From Bacteroidota bacterium (lineage in GTDB: Bacteria; Bacteroidota; Bacteroidia; UKL13-3), in assembly GCA_947485745.1 (NCBI GenBank), contig CANKQY010000012.1, forward strand, positions 1-42,238: a stretch of DNA of 42,238 nucleotides. Reading direction: 5' to 3'. A model generated the notes under the pieces. That model saw only the letters and a list, made by a program, of their open reading frames with translations. It ran no database searches and was not told where the DNA came from. The translations under genes and the position numbers were made by a program. Positions 1 to 18,312 of the stretch are shown here, one piece after another. The stretch's first letter is position 1. Each line of letters starts with the position of its first letter.

Positions 1-149
1 CTAGAAGTTTCGGTTTGATCCAAAGAAAACAAGATGATTGGCAAACTGCCGTTGAACTTACCAATGTCCTCAAACAATTCGACCCCAAAGACCCGGTAAA
101 ATACGATTTCGCCCTATTCGGCATGGGCGTAGAACACGAATCATTGTAG
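1..149 (+). CDS. TIGR02757 (DUF2400) family protein, C-terminal end only
   Basis: The reading frame enters from the left edge (first full codon at base 3) and gives 48 residues before a TAG stop at 147-149. The readable end contains FGLIQRKQDDW, then LKQFDPKDPVKYDFALFGMG. This matches my memory of the C-terminus of the TIGR02757 family, where an RK-DW element and a DP-DPVKYDFALFG-GV ending are characteristic. The family is widespread in Bacteroidota and has no established biochemical role that I know of. The N-terminal part lies outside the window. The stop codon is followed with no gap by the first REP palindrome, and the G-TAG at 146-149 doubles as the tetranucleotide in front of that palindrome. 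Confidence 0.8.
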   Translation, partial: RSFGLIQRKQDDWQTAVELTNVLKQFDPKDPVKYDFALFGMGVEHESL

Positions 150-378
150 GGGCGAAAAATCTTTCGCCCTTATGCCCCAAGGAAAATTTGTGGGTGTAGC
201 AAAATGGCGAAAAATCTTTCGCCCTTATGCTCCAAGGAAAATTTGCGGGTATTGCAAAAGGGCGAAAGATTTTTCGCCCCAAGAAAAATTTGTGGTTACA
301 CTTACAGGGCGAAAGATTTTTCGCCCCTACATATGCTTTCCCGGGGATTTCGTTGTATGGGCGAAAAATTTTTCGCCC
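150..378. repeat. Tandem array of five REP palindromes
   Basis: Five copies of a 20-bp palindrome with consensus GGGCGAAARATYTTTCGCCC lie at 150-169, 206-224 (lacking the first G), 260-279, 307-326 and 359-378. The first three spacers are related to one another: each has an AGGAAAATTTG-type core followed by GGGT or GGTT and a short A-rich end. The region therefore looks like four tandem units of about 47-56 bp plus a fifth palindrome. The fifth copy is preceded by CCCGGG (340-345), nine bases and GTAT, the same arrangement seen beside the RAYT gene. Open reading frames through the array encode repeated RKIFRPY-like peptides and are not genes. Confidence 0.9.
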
Positions 379-639: not shown

Positions 640-730
640 GCTAATGTTTGACCCCTTCGGGGTCACATGTTTATAGCATGCCAATTACCCTATAAACATG
701 CGACCCCGAAGGGGTCGAATAGGGATTAGC
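640..730. repeat. 91-bp palindromic element (MITE/REP-like)
   Basis: Two 15-bp near-palindromes, GACCCCTTCGGGGTC (650-664) and GACCCCGAAGGGGTC (702-716), are arms of a larger inverted repeat. ATGTTTATAG (667-676) pairs with CTATAAACAT (690-699), so the 27-base arms match with a single difference around a 13-base loop. GCTAAT (640-645) and ATTAGC (725-730) extend the symmetry outwards. The element is not related in sequence to the GGGCGA-type REPs and occurs once in the window. It carries no coding sequence. A short mobile palindromic element or a strong bidirectional hairpin terminator are both possible. Confidence 0.7.
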
Positions 731-14110: not shown

Positions 14111-14950
14111 ATGACTACCACAATTAAGCAAACACAACCAATTGGAATTTTTGATTCGGGTATTGGCGGACTTACAGTAGCAAGAGCTATAACCAAGTTA
14201 TTGCCTAATGAGCAGATTATTTATTTTGGAGATACAGCTCACATGCCTTACGGCGAAAAAAGTGCGGAAGCAATTAAAAATTTCTCCGTAAAAATAGCTG
14301 AGTTTTTAAAGTTTAAAAATTGTAAAATGATTGTGATTGCCTGTAATACGGCATCTGCAGCTGGCTATAAGGCAGTAGTTAAATCCACTGGCATGAAGGA
14401 TTTAATTGTGAATGTTATTGATCCTGCTGCACAATATGTGGTAAAGAACCATTACCGCCAAAAGATTGGCGTTATTGGCACCAAACGTACCGTTAGTTCA
14501 AATGTATATGCCAAAAGAATTGAGGCCCTAGATCCGCTTGCAAATTTGGTACAATTGGCCACTCCTTTATTGGCTCCTATGATTGAGGAAGGATTTTATA
14601 ATAACAAAATATCTCAAACAATCATCAATAATTACCTCAGTAAATCAAAGTTGAGCAAAATTGATGCACTCATTTTAGGATGTACACATTACCCTTTGGT
14701 AAAAGCCGAGATTCAAAAGTTTTATGGGAAGTCGGTTGAAGTAATTGATAGTAGCGAGATTGTTGCTTTGCATGTTAAAAGTGTGCTAGAAAAGCATCAA
14801 TTGTTGAATTCTACTGTCCCAAGTAAATTTAGTTTCGGCAAAAAAGCACAGCAGTTTATAGTAAGTGATTATACCCAAAGCTTTGAAGAAACCAGCAAAA
14901 TTTTCTTTGATGAAAAAGTGAAATTGAAACAGTTTAATATTTGGGAGTAG
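14111..14950 (+). CDS. murI: Glutamate racemase
   Basis: Cofactor-independent racemase of 279 residues that makes D-glutamate for peptidoglycan. The N-terminal IGIFDSGIGGLTVARAI contains the conserved Asp-Ser (D15-S16). The two catalytic cysteines are C78 in VIACNTASA and C191 in LGCTHYPLV. FGDTAHMPYG and VIGTKRTV are also family landmarks. Length and motifs are complete, so the enzyme should be active in the cytoplasm. It follows the ompH terminator by only 13 bases, so it may use its own promoter near the terminator or depend on read-through. The next gene starts two bases after the stop. Confidence 0.95.
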   Translation: MTTTIKQTQPIGIFDSGIGGLTVARAITKLLPNEQIIYFGDTAHMPYGEKSAEAIKNFSVKIAEFLKFKNCKMIVIACNTASAAGYKAVVKSTGMKDLIVNVIDPAAQYVVKNHYRQKIGVIGTKRTVSSNVYAKRIEALDPLANLVQLATPLLAPMIEEGFYNNKISQTIINNYLSKSKLSKIDALILGCTHYPLVKAEIQKFYGKSVEVIDSSEIVALHVKSVLEKHQLLNSTVPSKFSFGKKAQQFIVSDYTQSFEETSKIFFDEKVKLKQFNIWE

Positions 14951-14952
14951 GA

Positions 14953-15600
14953 ATGAATACGCTTCAACTAAAATTGATTTTTATTGGGTTTGTTTTATTT
15001 TCAACTGCTTGTAATTGTGATGAAAATGTAACCTTGAAAGAGTTTACCCCCCAACAAAAAATGTGGCTTGATTCTGTACCAATGGGTAATACTTCTTTTA
15101 TTGCGATTTCTTCTTTTGGTGAAACAGATTCAAGTATTATTGATAAAGAAAATGGTATTGGCGAATATTCAGAATCTCGAACCGTAAATTGCGATAGAAC
15201 GATTAAATATGATACCAGAAGTATATTTTACTTTGTTGAGAAATATTTAATTCGGTTTGAATTTAGTTCAGAAAACACACCTGAAATTTTAGAATTAAAT
15301 ATTGATAATTATGGGGCGTCATCTTTAGGTATTGGTCGTACTACTTTATATTTTGATCAATCCTTAGTAGTTCGTTCAAATTTTTATTTTCCTTTTCAAT
15401 CAATCCCAATTCCTCAAAATATGCAAATCACAGGTGATACGCTTATTAAAGGTACTACTTATTCCGATTTGAATAGGATTTTTTATGAGTTGCCTTCAAA
15501 CGCAAATCCAAGTTTTTTAAATAAGCTATGGATTTCTAAAGCGCATGGTCTCATTGCGTTTCAATTACTAAATGGCAAAATTTGGTACATCAAACCGTAA
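14953..15600 (+). CDS. Hypothetical lipoprotein
   Basis: The 215-residue product begins with a hydrophobic segment (LIFIGFVLFSTAC) that ends in a credible lipobox cysteine, giving a predicted lipid-anchored protein starting CNCDEN. The rest is a soluble mix of beta-strand-like stretches with no motif I recognise. The ATG at 14953 is preferred to an upstream TTG overlapping the murI stop. Co-transcription with murI is likely from the two-base spacing, but this is probably positional rather than functional. The following gene shares a similar layout, with a lipoprotein-like start and a W-L dipeptide about 25-35 residues after the cysteine, so the two could be diverged relatives. Confidence 0.7.
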   Translation: MNTLQLKLIFIGFVLFSTACNCDENVTLKEFTPQQKMWLDSVPMGNTSFIAISSFGETDSSIIDKENGIGEYSESRTVNCDRTIKYDTRSIFYFVEKYLIRFEFSSENTPEILELNIDNYGASSLGIGRTTLYFDQSLVVRSNFYFPFQSIPIPQNMQITGDTLIKGTTYSDLNRIFYELPSNANPSFLNKLWISKAHGLIAFQLLNGKIWYIKP

Positions 15601-15604
15601 GCGA

Positions 15605-15811
15605 ATGAAGATAAAAAGTCCATTTTTTTTAATCACTTTTGCTTTTTACTTTTTACAATTCTCATGTAATAGGGGAAAGGGTTGTGAAATTCAATACGAC
15701 AATTCTAAAAGCTTAGGAACTATTTATCTCGAACCTGAAAGTGCCAATTGGTTGAAAAAATCCAATAAACATGATTTATTCTATTTTGAAATTTGTTTAA
15801 GGTTAGAATGA
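15605..15811 (+). pseudogene. Short lipoprotein-like gene, probably truncated
   Basis: A 68-residue frame starts four bases after the previous gene and opens with a hydrophobic signal (FFLITFAFYFLQFSC) and a possible lipid-attached cysteine. About 45 residues of mature protein (CNRGKGCEIQYDN onward, with SANWLKKSN) follow before a TGA at 15809-15811. This is short for a secreted lipoprotein. The RAYT gene begins 36 bases beyond the stop, so loss of the 3' part during insertion of the RAYT region is a plausible explanation. A genuine small lipoprotein remains possible. No function can be suggested. Confidence 0.5.
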
Positions 15812-15847
15812 ATTTTACTTTTGATTATTCCTAAATGAAAATACCCC

Positions 15848-16402
15848 ATGACCTACATACCCCGAATTCATAACCGCAAATCTATTCGATTAAAGACTTT
15901 TGATTATTCTAATGGAGGAAGCTTTTTTGTTACTTTAAATGCAAAAAATAGCAAGCCACTATTTGGAGAAATCATTAAGCAAAATATACCATTTCAAACC
16001 CAAATCATGGAATTGAATGAGGCAGGAATTTATGCTAAAAAATGCTGGGAGGAAATTCCTATACATTTTCCAAATGCCTCAATTCATGAATTTATCATTA
16101 TGCCAAATCATGTTCATGGAATAATAGAGGTAATGTTTGATCCAAATTTTGCAATGAATAATAAATTCGGCAAATTTCAATCACCTGCGCGTACCATTGG
16201 GTCCATCATTCGTGGATTCAAAACAGGTGTAACAATTTGGTTCAGGCAAAATTATCCAAATCAATATCCAAAGGAAAAACCAATTTGGCATAGAAACTAT
16301 TACGAAAAAATCATCCGTAATAAAACCGACTTCGAAACCTACACGAAATACATCATGAATAACCCATCCAAATACCGAATTCTCCCGGGTAAACAAATGT
16401 AA
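15848..16402 (+). CDS. REP-associated tyrosine transposase (RAYT), Y1/HUH family
   Basis: The 184-residue protein is a single-domain HUH nuclease of the IS200-like Y1 superfamily, RAYT branch. Family signs are the N-terminal RKSIRLKTFDYSNGGSFFVT, the HUH motif H88-V89-H90 in IIMPNHVHGIIEV, and the catalytic tyrosine region WHRNYYEKIIRN with Y151 or Y152. KYIMNNPSKY, typical of the C-terminal helix, follows. RAYTs cut single-stranded REP hairpins and are usually single-copy, domesticated enzymes rather than free transposons. Here the stop codon (16400-16402) is followed at once by a GGGCGAAAAATCTTTCGCCC palindrome, and further copies lie downstream and at 150-378. This genomic pairing supports the assignment. 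All visible motifs are intact, so it may be active. Confidence 0.9.
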   Translation: MTYIPRIHNRKSIRLKTFDYSNGGSFFVTLNAKNSKPLFGEIIKQNIPFQTQIMELNEAGIYAKKCWEEIPIHFPNASIHEFIIMPNHVHGIIEVMFDPNFAMNNKFGKFQSPARTIGSIIRGFKTGVTIWFRQNYPNQYPKEKPIWHRNYYEKIIRNKTDFETYTKYIMNNPSKYRILPGKQM

Positions 16403-16638
16403 GGGCGAAAAATCTTTCGCCCTTCTGCCAAACCGCAAAATAATCTTAAAGAAAAAGAATATTTTGCCTCAAATGTTTGCGGGCGTCCGCCAGCTGGCGG
16501 ATTCGCCCCAACGCGATTGCACCCGGGCAACCTCACGTAAGGGCGAAAAATCTTTCGCCCTTCTGCCAAACCGCAAAATATTCTAAAAGAAAAAAAACAT
16601 TTTGCCTCAAATTTTTACGGGCGAAAAATTTTTCGCCC
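16384..16638. repeat. RAYT-linked REP cluster with a duplicated REP-spacer-REP unit
   Basis: REP palindromes lie at 16403-16422, 16541-16560 and 16619-16638. The segment 16403-16508 is duplicated at 16541-16638: palindrome, a spacer of about 58 bp starting TTCTGCCAAACCGCAAAATA, then a second palindrome. In the first copy, the second palindrome has its loop replaced by TCCGCCAGCTGGCGGA (16486-16501) between GGGCG and TTCGCCC. Both units are preceded by CCCGGG-N9-GTAA (16384-16402 and 16522-16540), so the duplication includes the last bases of the RAYT gene. The cluster fills the gap between the convergent RAYT and fhs genes and may also serve as a two-way terminator. Confidence 0.9.
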
Positions 16639-16647
16639 ATACGAAAA

Positions 16648-18312
16648 TTACGATAAATTCACAATTTCGCCATTTACAAAATCAATGATATTTGCTGCGG
16701 GTTCTTTTGGTAGGCCCGGCATACGCATGATTTCGCCGGCAACCGCAACCACAAAGCCCGCACCGTTATTGAGCACGAGGTTTTCAATATGAATGTTGAA
16801 TCCCTCGGCAGCCCCAACAAGCGAGGCATTATCGGTGAAACTGAATTGCGTTTTTGCAATACATACCGGCATTTGATCGCCACCTAATTCCTTGATTTTC
16901 TTTAAAGCTGTTTTGGCATTTTTGCCATATGTAACACTTGCTCCTTTGTATACCTTAGTTACAATCTTATTGATTTTGTCCTCAATCGTATCATCCATTT
17001 CGTAGGTATGAATGATTGGTTTTGATGGATGGTTCTCTACAATTTCAACTACCTTTTTTGCCAAGGCAACTGCACCATCACCACCAGCCGCAAAGCCTTC
17101 GTTGACGGCAAAATGAGCACCTTTTTCTTTGCACCAATTTTCAATGAAGTTGATTTCTTCCTCGGTATCAAAACCAAATTTATTCAAGGCAAGTATTACT
17201 GTTTGTCCAAATTGTTGCAAGCTTTCAATGTGGCGTTCAACATTTTTGATACCTGCTTTTAAGCCTTCGAGGTTTGGTTGTTTGATGAGCTTTTCATCAA
17301 CCTTTCCATGCAACTTAATAGATTGCGTTGTGGTAACCAAAACGCAAGCCTTGGGAGCAATTCCGGCTACTCTGCATTTTATATTCAAGAATTTTTCACC
17401 ACCTAAATCGCTACCGAAGCCAGCTTCTGTTACCGCGTATTCGCCAAATTGCAAAGCTGCTTTTGTGGCCATAATACTGTTGCAACCATGTGCAATATTA
17501 GCAAATGGTCCGCCATGTATAAATGCTGCTCCGCCTTCTATGGTTTGAACCAAATTTGGGTTCAGGGCATCTTTTAATAAAGTAACTATTGCACCTGCTA
17601 CGCCCAAATCGCGCACATAAAATGGCGTGCCATCGTATTGGTAACCTACCAAAATATTTTCAATGCGTTTTCTTAAATCATCCATAGATGTGGCCAAACA
17701 GAAGATGGCCATAATCTCGCTTGCTGGTGTTATATCGAAACCAGTTTCTGTAGGAATGCCGTTTGTTGAACCATTTAAACCGCTTAACATGTACCTTAAT
17801 GATCGGTCGTTTACATCAAGCACTCTACGCCATAGAATTTGCTTTAAACCTTTAGGATTGTTTTTATTAAAATATTGGTAGTTGTCTATTAAGGCTGCTA
17901 AAGTATTATTCGCAGAAGTTATTGCATGAAAATCGCCTGTGAAATGTAGGTTGATATCTTCCATTGGTAACACTTGACTATAGCCTCCACCTGCAGCGCC
18001 ACCTTTCATGCCAAAAACCGGACCTAAGCTTGGTTCACGTAAAGCAACAATGGCTTTTTTGCCAATTTTGTTGAGTCCTTGAGCTAAGGCAACAGAGGTA
18101 GTTGTTTTTCCTGAACCACTTTTATTGGGAGTAGTTGCGGTAACTAAGATTAAATTACTTTTCGCAATTTTTGCATCGTCTATTACAAAACTAATTTTGG
18201 CCTTATATTTACCATATTGCTCAATTTGATCTTCCTCAATACCAATATTGGCTGCTATTTTTTGAATGGCTTGTAATTTTACTTCCCTTGCAATTTCAAT
18301 GTCCGATTTCAT
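16648..18312 (-). CDS. fhs: Formate-tetrahydrofolate ligase
   Basis: Converts formate, tetrahydrofolate and ATP to 10-formyl-tetrahydrofolate, feeding one-carbon metabolism. The 554-residue length is normal for the family. The P-loop is at about 61-73 (TPNKSGSGKTTTS). ALREPSLGPVFGMKGGAAGGGYSQVLPMEDINLHFTGD is the strongly conserved core, given here in separate parts: ALREPSLGPVFGMKGG, GGYSQVLPMED and NLHFTGD. VAGEIMRMPGLPKEPAA near the C-terminus is also typical. It is cytoplasmic. Transcription runs left, and the stop lies nine bases from a REP palindrome that could help terminate it. The antisense frames in this region are shadows. Confidence 0.95.
   Translation of the reverse strand: MKSDIEIAREVKLQAIQKIAANIGIEEDQIEQYGKYKAKISFVIDDAKIAKSNLILVTATTPNKSGSGKTTTSVALAQGLNKIGKKAIVALREPSLGPVFGMKGGAAGGGYSQVLPMEDINLHFTGDFHAITSANNTLAALIDNYQYFNKNNPKGLKQILWRRVLDVNDRSLRYMLSGLNGSTNGIPTETGFDITPASEIMAIFCLATSMDDLRKRIENILVGYQYDGTPFYVRDLGVAGAIVTLLKDALNPNLVQTIEGGAAFIHGGPFANIAHGCNSIMATKAALQFGEYAVTEAGFGSDLGGEKFLNIKCRVAGIAPKACVLVTTTQSIKLHGKVDEKLIKQPNLEGLKAGIKNVERHIESLQQFGQTVILALNKFGFDTEEEINFIENWCKEKGAHFAVNEGFAAGGDGAVALAKKVVEIVENHPSKPIIHTYEMDDTIEDKINKIVTKVYKGASVTYGKNAKTALKKIKELGGDQMPVCIAKTQFSFTDNASLVGAAEGFNIHIENLVLNNGAGFVVAVAGEIMRMPGLPKEPAANIIDFVNGEIVNLS

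Follow-up and report, generated by a model that had tools for sequence, protein, structure and literature searches.

A RAYT-type transposase gene and its probable cognate REP palindrome family in a Bacteroidota genome

In a REPtron, a single chromosomal RAYT (TnpAREP) gene is paired with a cognate family of REP palindromes. RAYT genes have been described as delimited by two REPs, and in many cases REPs stand immediately downstream of, or very near, the rayt stop codon (PMC2817692). The supply of stop codons by REPs is already in print as well; GTAG termini often give the flanking ORFs their stop codon (PMC3733652). Enzyme work covers RAYT groups 2 and 3. The enzymes of E. coli and of group 3 bind REPs in single-stranded form and depend on the GTAG foot, though not equally; cleavage occurs at CT (or CA) on the 5′ or 3′ side of the hairpin, and the foot probably serves as a guide (PMC8266576). 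Subclass 2.4, abundant in Cyanobacteria and Bacteroidetes and equated in a table with Bertels group 4, is described as having the motifs NH[IFV]H, WQ and YIxNNP, canonical long or double-foot REPs, and in-frame REPs inside the gene (PMC6006769).

The window, that is, the whole 42,238-nt stretch of DNA analysed here, contains a transposase-like gene, designated RAYT-A, and a recurrent 20-nt palindrome, designated REP-A (Table 1). The two very probably constitute a cognate REPtron, a reading to which we assign a probability of about 0.87, and the pair is an ordinary, well-supported RAYT-REP pair of a kind already known. The sequence-only reading had described an HUH tyrosine transposase-like gene ending at 16402 with a palindrome starting at the next base, and this was confirmed: GGGCGAAAAATCTTTCGCCC begins at 16403, right after the TAA stop of RAYT-A, and the TAA itself belongs to the GTAA foot of the palindrome. 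It had also counted the palindrome at least eight times, in agreement with the eight places found at up to 3 mismatches (150, 205, 260, 307, 359, 16403, 16541 and 16619), which gave 16 strand matches in the window versus 0 in 100 shuffles. The first REP-A copy with its flanks is predicted to fold as a DNA hairpin at -10.8 kcal/mol (shuffle mean -1.65), and a copy similar to the variant palindrome at 16481..16508 is present in an array on contig C10. An Rfam search over the window gave no family at gathering score. A different palindromic element, an inverted 30-nt pair at 647-719 (GACCCC...GGGGTC hairpins, 13 nt apart, 93% complementary), is also present in the window; of 317 fetched loci, 5 matched an exact 20-nt pattern taken from it, and each of these overlaps window 647-719. 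Upstream of RAYT-A, about 800 bp (14951-15761) with an ORF at 14941-15600 is absent in the sister genome G014, which has about 100 nt at that place.

Table 1. Coordinates of the RAYT-A gene, REP-A copies and adjoining features in the window
Feature	Position	Strand	Remarks
RAYT-A gene, HUH/Y1 tyrosine transposase of TnpAREP kind, 184 aa	15848..16402	+	Open ORF, motifs, profiles, predicted fold
REP foot GTAA	16399..16402	+	TAA is the RAYT-A stop codon
REP-A copy	16403..16422	+	8-bp stem, 4-nt loop
Variant palindrome	16481..16508	.	Same base (GGGCG...CGCCC), longer apical stem; far side of first REP pair
REP foot GTAA	16537..16540	+	
REP-A copy	16541..16560	+	
REP-A copy, symmetric variant	16619..16638	-	Outward foot ATAC 16639-16642, GTAT on minus strand
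Gene that we take to be formate-tetrahydrofolate ligase-like	16648..18312	-	Convergent with RAYT-A; stop 9 bases from array
Gene 3′ end (complete on contig C52, 266 aa)	1..149	+	Stop TAG is foot of next REP
REP foot GTAG	146..149	+	
REP-A copy	150..169	+	
REP-A copy	205..224	+	One mismatch
REP-A copy	260..279	-	
REP-A copy	307..326	-	Foot GTAG on minus strand (CTAC 327-330)
REP-A copy, symmetric variant	359..378	.	GTAT to its left

RAYT-A carries both features that mark a family member, the HUH motif (NHVH, residues 87-90) and a single Tyr (Y168, in YIMNNP, residues 168-173), together with W147. Residues M85, P86, H88, H90, W147, Y168, N172 and P173 are invariant across 11 aligned RAYT sequences. 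The NCBIfam model REP_Tyr_transpos (NF047646) matched RAYT-A at E 2.6e-13 with 50.1 bits, short of its curated cut-off of 80, and matched 11 of the 11 members of the RAYT-A alignment (A1) at E <= 0.001. A sequence search of the PDB returned E. coli TnpAREP as the sole match, a weak one (E 0.12) covering the W and its surrounding region, and the PHROGs search gave one weak match of unknown function (E 0.0021). The AlphaFold model of RAYT-A, built from 11 aligned sequences (pLDDT 79.3, pTM 0.75), resembled in Foldseek the ISDra2 transposase (2xm3, E 1.6e-6), the complex of TnpAREP with a REP hairpin (4er8, E 3.0e-6), and also the IS608 transposase. The predicted fold is that of a Y1 transposase, with TnpAREP and IS200/IS605 TnpA as the nearest solved structures. 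Placement of the protein in the RAYT branch, as had been anticipated, is supported by fold and family, though below the NCBI score cut-off.

The shared fold, and the Pfam family Y1_Tnp ('Transposase IS200 like'), which matched RAYT-A at 24.8 bits, just above its cut-off of 23, would also suit an ordinary IS200/IS605 transposase with the palindromes as its ends or leftovers. This is extremely unlikely, as the NCBIfam IS200/IS605 model scored 16 bits (cut-off 55) against the 50.1 bits of the RAYT model, and the REP arrays lie far from the gene, which has no hairpin on its 5′ side within 1 kb. Multiple mobile copies were not found either: RAYT-A is single-copy in the genome, its sole other match being 33% identical, and it is flanked, on the 3′ side only, by a paired REP repeated genome-wide. 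The missing 5′ REP also counts against the main reading, as RAYT genes are described with REPs on both sides (PMC2817692). RAYT-A is under constraint, because dN/dS was 0.34 between the two orthologues compared, those of the source genome and its sister; the constraint is weaker than for the ligase-like neighbour (0.018) and for the array-flanking gene C1b (0.028). The dS of RAYT-A (0.29) was also below those of the same two genes (0.53 and 0.58). At W147-H148 (window 16286-16291), RAYT-A has WH, while the 10 other aligned RAYTs, including the sister, have WQ. Q95 of the E. coli enzyme has been counted among the residues of the foot-recognising region (PMC6006769).

The source genome (2.75 Mb in 139 contigs) was scanned with GGGCGAAARATYTTTCGCCC, a 20-nt pattern that is 2-fold degenerate at just two positions and that occurred 36 times compared with 0 for a reversed-pattern control. 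A few of these copies are double-counted, as the contig pairs C12/C52 and C5/C75 each show one locus twice; REP copies are probably also under-counted, since MAG contigs break at REP arrays. The contigs that do so at their starts are C5, C12, C52 and C75. With up to 4 mismatches counted and doubled loci merged, 8 distinct arrays are obtained, each with 3 to 9 units. Among 30 oriented exact copies (doubly assembled loci counted twice), GTA stood directly 5′ of the hairpin in 25 and on the other side in none; the feet were GTAG in 9, GTAA in 8, GTAC in 6, GTAT in 2 and others in 5. GTA was likewise 5′ of REP-A in 9 of 12 copies in the sister genome G014, and on the other side in 3 of 12. Because 11 of 16 array ends carried an outward-pointing GTA foot in a by-eye reading, the REP-A unit looks like a REP pair (REPIN). 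On contig C28, one REP pair is predicted to fold as a single long hairpin with its feet paired. In the C10 array (L022, contig C10 28649-29134), units are spaced 61 or 86 nt and the left flank is constant while the orientation of the REP core flips between units, a hairpin inversion within the array.

A RAYT homologue was detected at E 1e-10 in 31 of the 64 genomes analysed for the order. REP-A was present in two of the 64, the source genome (36 copies) and G014 (12 copies), which share close RAYT orthologues; the other 62 had none. The RAYT of G014 was 80% identical to RAYT-A, and in G014, too, a REP directly follows the RAYT stop. As G014 is a sister, with about 91% DNA identity over the array flanks, this co-occurrence represents one lineage, not two independent cases; it rests on a single sister pair, and shared descent alone could explain it. 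The genome_contigs collection gave only 2 loci of close relatives.

The source genome also encodes a second, diverged RAYT, 33% identical to RAYT-A, on contig C81 (L029, 442-1574), with its own palindrome AAACGCGATTCATCGCGTTT upstream, and so offers a natural within-genome control for specificity. Three of the seven genomic copies of AAACGCGATTCATCGCGTTT stand 247-548 nt upstream of this gene, whose REP is of the AAACGCGAT type, unlike REP-A. Within the 64 order genomes, AAACGCGATKMATCGCGTTT was restricted to the source genome (7) and G014 (2). Two further REP families were followed in the order. GGACAGGTCGCGACCTGTCC with a GTAN foot was present in 5 of 64 genomes, all five with a RAYT match at E 1e-10, although the match in G016 is interrupted by an internal stop. 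The second family, AGACGT...ACGTCT, likewise with GTAN as its foot, was present in 16 of 64 genomes, 4 of which (G035, G037, G051 and G052) had no RAYT at E 1e-10, which counts against strict pairing; the enzyme there may be lost, diverged, or missing from incomplete bins. These four genomes have 1 to 25 forward AGACGT REP matches each.

Of the eight REP-A arrays, the seven other than C79 were sought and located in G014, and all seven carry REPs or degenerate REPs there; thus no recent movement of REP-A between the sisters was seen at these 7 of 8 arrays. Copy numbers within arrays differ between the source genome and G014 (9 vs 5 for C10, 8 vs 3 for C28). These observations, together with the 25 forward AGACGT matches in G037 where a RAYT was undetected, would fit arrays that are old relics of a once-active pair and undergo only tandem expansion and contraction today. 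We regard this as possible but somewhat unlikely, given that the REP-A cores are nearly identical (36 copies fit the 20-nt pattern) and that RAYT-A is open and, by its dN/dS, constrained.

In a sample of 395 genomes of the phylum, 16 carried the REP-A palindrome: the source genome plus 15 more, which had 1 to 11 copies each. The idea that the palindrome is unique to the source lineage was therefore rejected. A RAYT search at E 1e-8 took in 45 genomes: the 15 palindrome carriers besides the source genome, and 30 non-carriers hand-picked for spread. It gave a match in 11 of 15 and 12 of 30, respectively; in G336, G417, G068 and G346, a RAYT was not found at this threshold despite the palindrome. 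Both these four carriers and the general frequency of RAYTs (31 of 64 genomes in the order, 12 of 30 non-carriers here) weigh against the pairing. The palindrome lies inside a RAYT or within about 100 nt of it in six genomes (G288, G304, G231, G315, G377 and G268), so that RAYTs of other Bacteroidota families also have it, and G122 carries it downstream of a stop-interrupted RAYT copy. The sequence-only reading had suggested a separate lineage of the system, which overstates the case in view of this distribution and the resemblance of its features to subclass 2.4. RAYTs of relatives at L041, L042, L231, L239, L240 and L248 contain in-frame REPs inside the gene, which give repeated peptides between the HUH and Tyr motifs.

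The relationship between REP type and RAYT phylogeny was analysed using hairpins listed within 1 kb (order) or 600 nt (phylum) of each RAYT locus, with REP classes labelled by eye from the stem base and some loci carrying two types. The trees cover loci returned by the searches, namely 31 of the 50 order matches listed and 30 of the 45 phylum matches listed, plus L212. From the order tree (30 rows, with L053 dropped for having 15 aa before a stop), the 18 rows in five classes with two or more members were tested; REP type required 4 changes, the minimum, whereas shuffled labels averaged 9.9 and never went below 7 (0 of 500 as low). The phylum tree comprised 53 RAYTs from the order and phylum loci after removal of short rows (L052, L053 and L061 of the order; L230 and L250), L212, and rows in which the same gene was picked twice (L253, L256 and L257), of which L055 and L255 had no usable REP label; it has many weak deep branches and gave long-branch warnings. 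On this tree, 25 changes (minimum 22) accounted for the 23 types of the 51 labelled rows, whereas 300 shuffles averaged 37.6 and never fell below 34. Taken by itself, REP-A required 4 changes versus a mean of 7.65 (0 of 500 shuffles as low). L237 and L238 carry two REP types each and were both labelled REP-A; when given their other label, all types together still required 25 changes (0 of 300 as low) and REP-A 3 changes versus a mean of 5.8 (0 of 500), and with the sister left out as well, REP-A required 3 versus a mean of 4.9 (5 of 500 as low). REP type therefore follows the RAYT tree across Bacteroidota far better than shuffled labels do, at both the order and the phylum level; this is the co-variation that the sequence-only reading had proposed as a check. 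The pairing it proposed draws support from the fold and family of the protein, the co-occurrence in 2 of 64 genomes, and this tracking of the RAYT tree by REP type.

In the source genome, nine ORFs of at least 150 aa have their stop no more than 150 nt from an array, and for six the distance is at most 3 nt. The stop-to-array distance is 0 for C1a, C1b, the C52/C12 gene and RAYT-A, where the stop codon is the foot itself, and 3 for C10a and C111a (TAGTAG); the remaining three ORFs end at 9, 19 and 129 nt. Such placement at gene ends, and one terminator-like match on the minus strand covering the first REP near RAYT-A, could point to host-kept terminators or mRNA-stabilising hairpins, with the RAYT as a bystander or neighbour. 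This explanation is very improbable: the region 15500-16700 showed no enrichment of terminator-like sites (1 versus a shuffle mean of 1.2), terminators need no one-sided GTA foot (25 of 30 versus 0 of 30), and near-identical cores, arrays of up to 9 units and co-variation with a transposase tree are not required of them.

Native stops were read from fetched genus relatives, which represent part of the matches. The same stop codon was used in 10 of 10 fetched relatives besides G014 for C1b, in 12 of 12 for C10a, and in 8 of 8 for C111a. In the 11 relatives fetched for C1a, the stop falls 0 to 2 codons further downstream, coinciding in 3 of them, and for the C52 gene it lies one codon upstream in 6 of 6, so the REP may have supplied the stop there. 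C1a and C1b are convergent, and their stops are -4 to +2 bases apart in 7 relatives without the C1 array, whereas exactly 201 bases of REP array separate them in the source genome and G014, and other DNA of 239 and 719 bases does so in G009 and G008, respectively; in G010, G012 and G013, the stretch held only one of the two genes. Because the gap is that small, purifying selection alone would force the exact position of the C1 array, which thus shows a harmless insertion rather than a choice of target.

Counting ORFs of at least 70 codons, 4 of 19 REP-A feet doubled as a stop codon, compared with 22 of 1066 other GTAR sites (p 0.0008), in a small sample and for a pattern that had been noticed before testing. 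Among the four, the case at the C10 array involves a spurious antisense ORF; de-duplication, conversely, removed the genuine C52 case, so that the true number is also 4. For the AGACGT and GGACAGG families, loci were the best 30 per search plus 60 stretches hand-picked among the matches listed, in G037, G036, G028, G029 and G035, and feet less than 250 nt from the locus start were dropped. The foot was a stop in 7 of 135 GTAR feet versus 58 of 2112 elsewhere for AGACGT (Fisher p 0.11) and in 2 of 24 versus 15 of 694 for GGACAGG (Fisher p 0.11); the stop-to-foot distance peaked at 0 in both (7 of 83 and 2 of 16), a weak effect. Stop-codon targeting as a general rule was rejected, since the excess was not significant in these two families. 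We consider it doubtful that the RAYT-A clade inserts REP pairs at existing GTAR sites, with native stops (TAG or TAA after G) as landing sites, the foot donated by or shared with the target, and stops acting as safe harbours for dispersal. Such landing would be akin to that of IS200/IS605 elements, in which the target tetranucleotide flanks the left end of the element.

If RAYT-A works like its E. coli and Stenotrophomonas counterparts, it would bind the single-stranded REP-A hairpin via its stem and GTAN foot and would cut beside it through the HUH/Tyr168 centre; REP-A would be rejoined elsewhere, mostly as REP pairs with outward feet (REPIN-like), and the arrays would then expand and shrink locally. 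The fourth foot base is free in REP-A, and the cut site would shift with it if the guide model holds. It is from these characterised enzymes that we infer binding, cleavage and mobility of REP-A. The locus offers a compact Bacteroidota test case, with two RAYTs and two unlike REPs in one genome, a relaxed foot, a sister species and empty-site relatives, and with it the mode and sites of REP insertion, including stop codons as targets, become directly testable. The parts most worth bench work are the placement at stop codons and the presence of two RAYTs with two REPs in one genome.

No study of the RAYT-A/REP-A pair was found, judged by titles, in the literature searched, and none of the main texts searched contains the exact REP-A palindrome. 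Provisionally, RAYT-A may be regarded as a RAYT resembling subclass 2.4, with which it was compared on the published description. RAYT-A shares with the published account of this subclass the NHVH and YIxNNP motifs, the lack of a C-terminal extension and the Bacteroidetes host phylum; its length is 184 aa versus 194 in the table, and its HUH-Y distance about 80 versus a median of 88 (PMC6006769). REP-A has the three G-C pairs at the base described for REPs of subclass 2.4 (PMC6006769), and relatives of RAYT-A have the double feet and in-gene, in-frame REPs. RAYT-A differs in having WH for WQ and no REP inside the gene, and REP-A in being a short single-foot hairpin rather than a long or double-foot one, with a GTAN rather than a GTAG foot.

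E. coli TnpAREP (subclass 2.2; 4er8) resembles RAYT-A in predicted fold and, weakly (E 0.12), in the W and the region around it, and E. coli REPs resemble REP-A in their GTAG-type foot 5′ of the hairpin, inverted pairs and arrays. E. coli REPs, as described, contain a bulge, and their GTAG admits no variation (PMC8266576), in contrast to the perfect stem and variable fourth foot base of REP-A (G 9, A 8, C 6 and T 2 among 25 GTA feet). The Stenotrophomonas REPtron Sm (group 3) is like REP-A in its perfect 8-bp stem and small loop, which is 3 nt rather than 4 nt (PMC8266576), whereas its protein motifs, given for subclass 2.5 as DH[LF]H and YI[VI]ANP (PMC6006769), differ from those of RAYT-A. 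The main text of PMC3733652 names Bacteroidetes once, for CGTC repeats. The GTAG-tagged REP families described there agree with REP-A in the one-sided tag, the dimers in opposite orientation and the location at gene 3′ ends, and the tetranucleotide at one hairpin end that marks the GTAG superfamily was GTAG in 9 of 30 oriented REP-A copies and began with GTA in 25 of 30.
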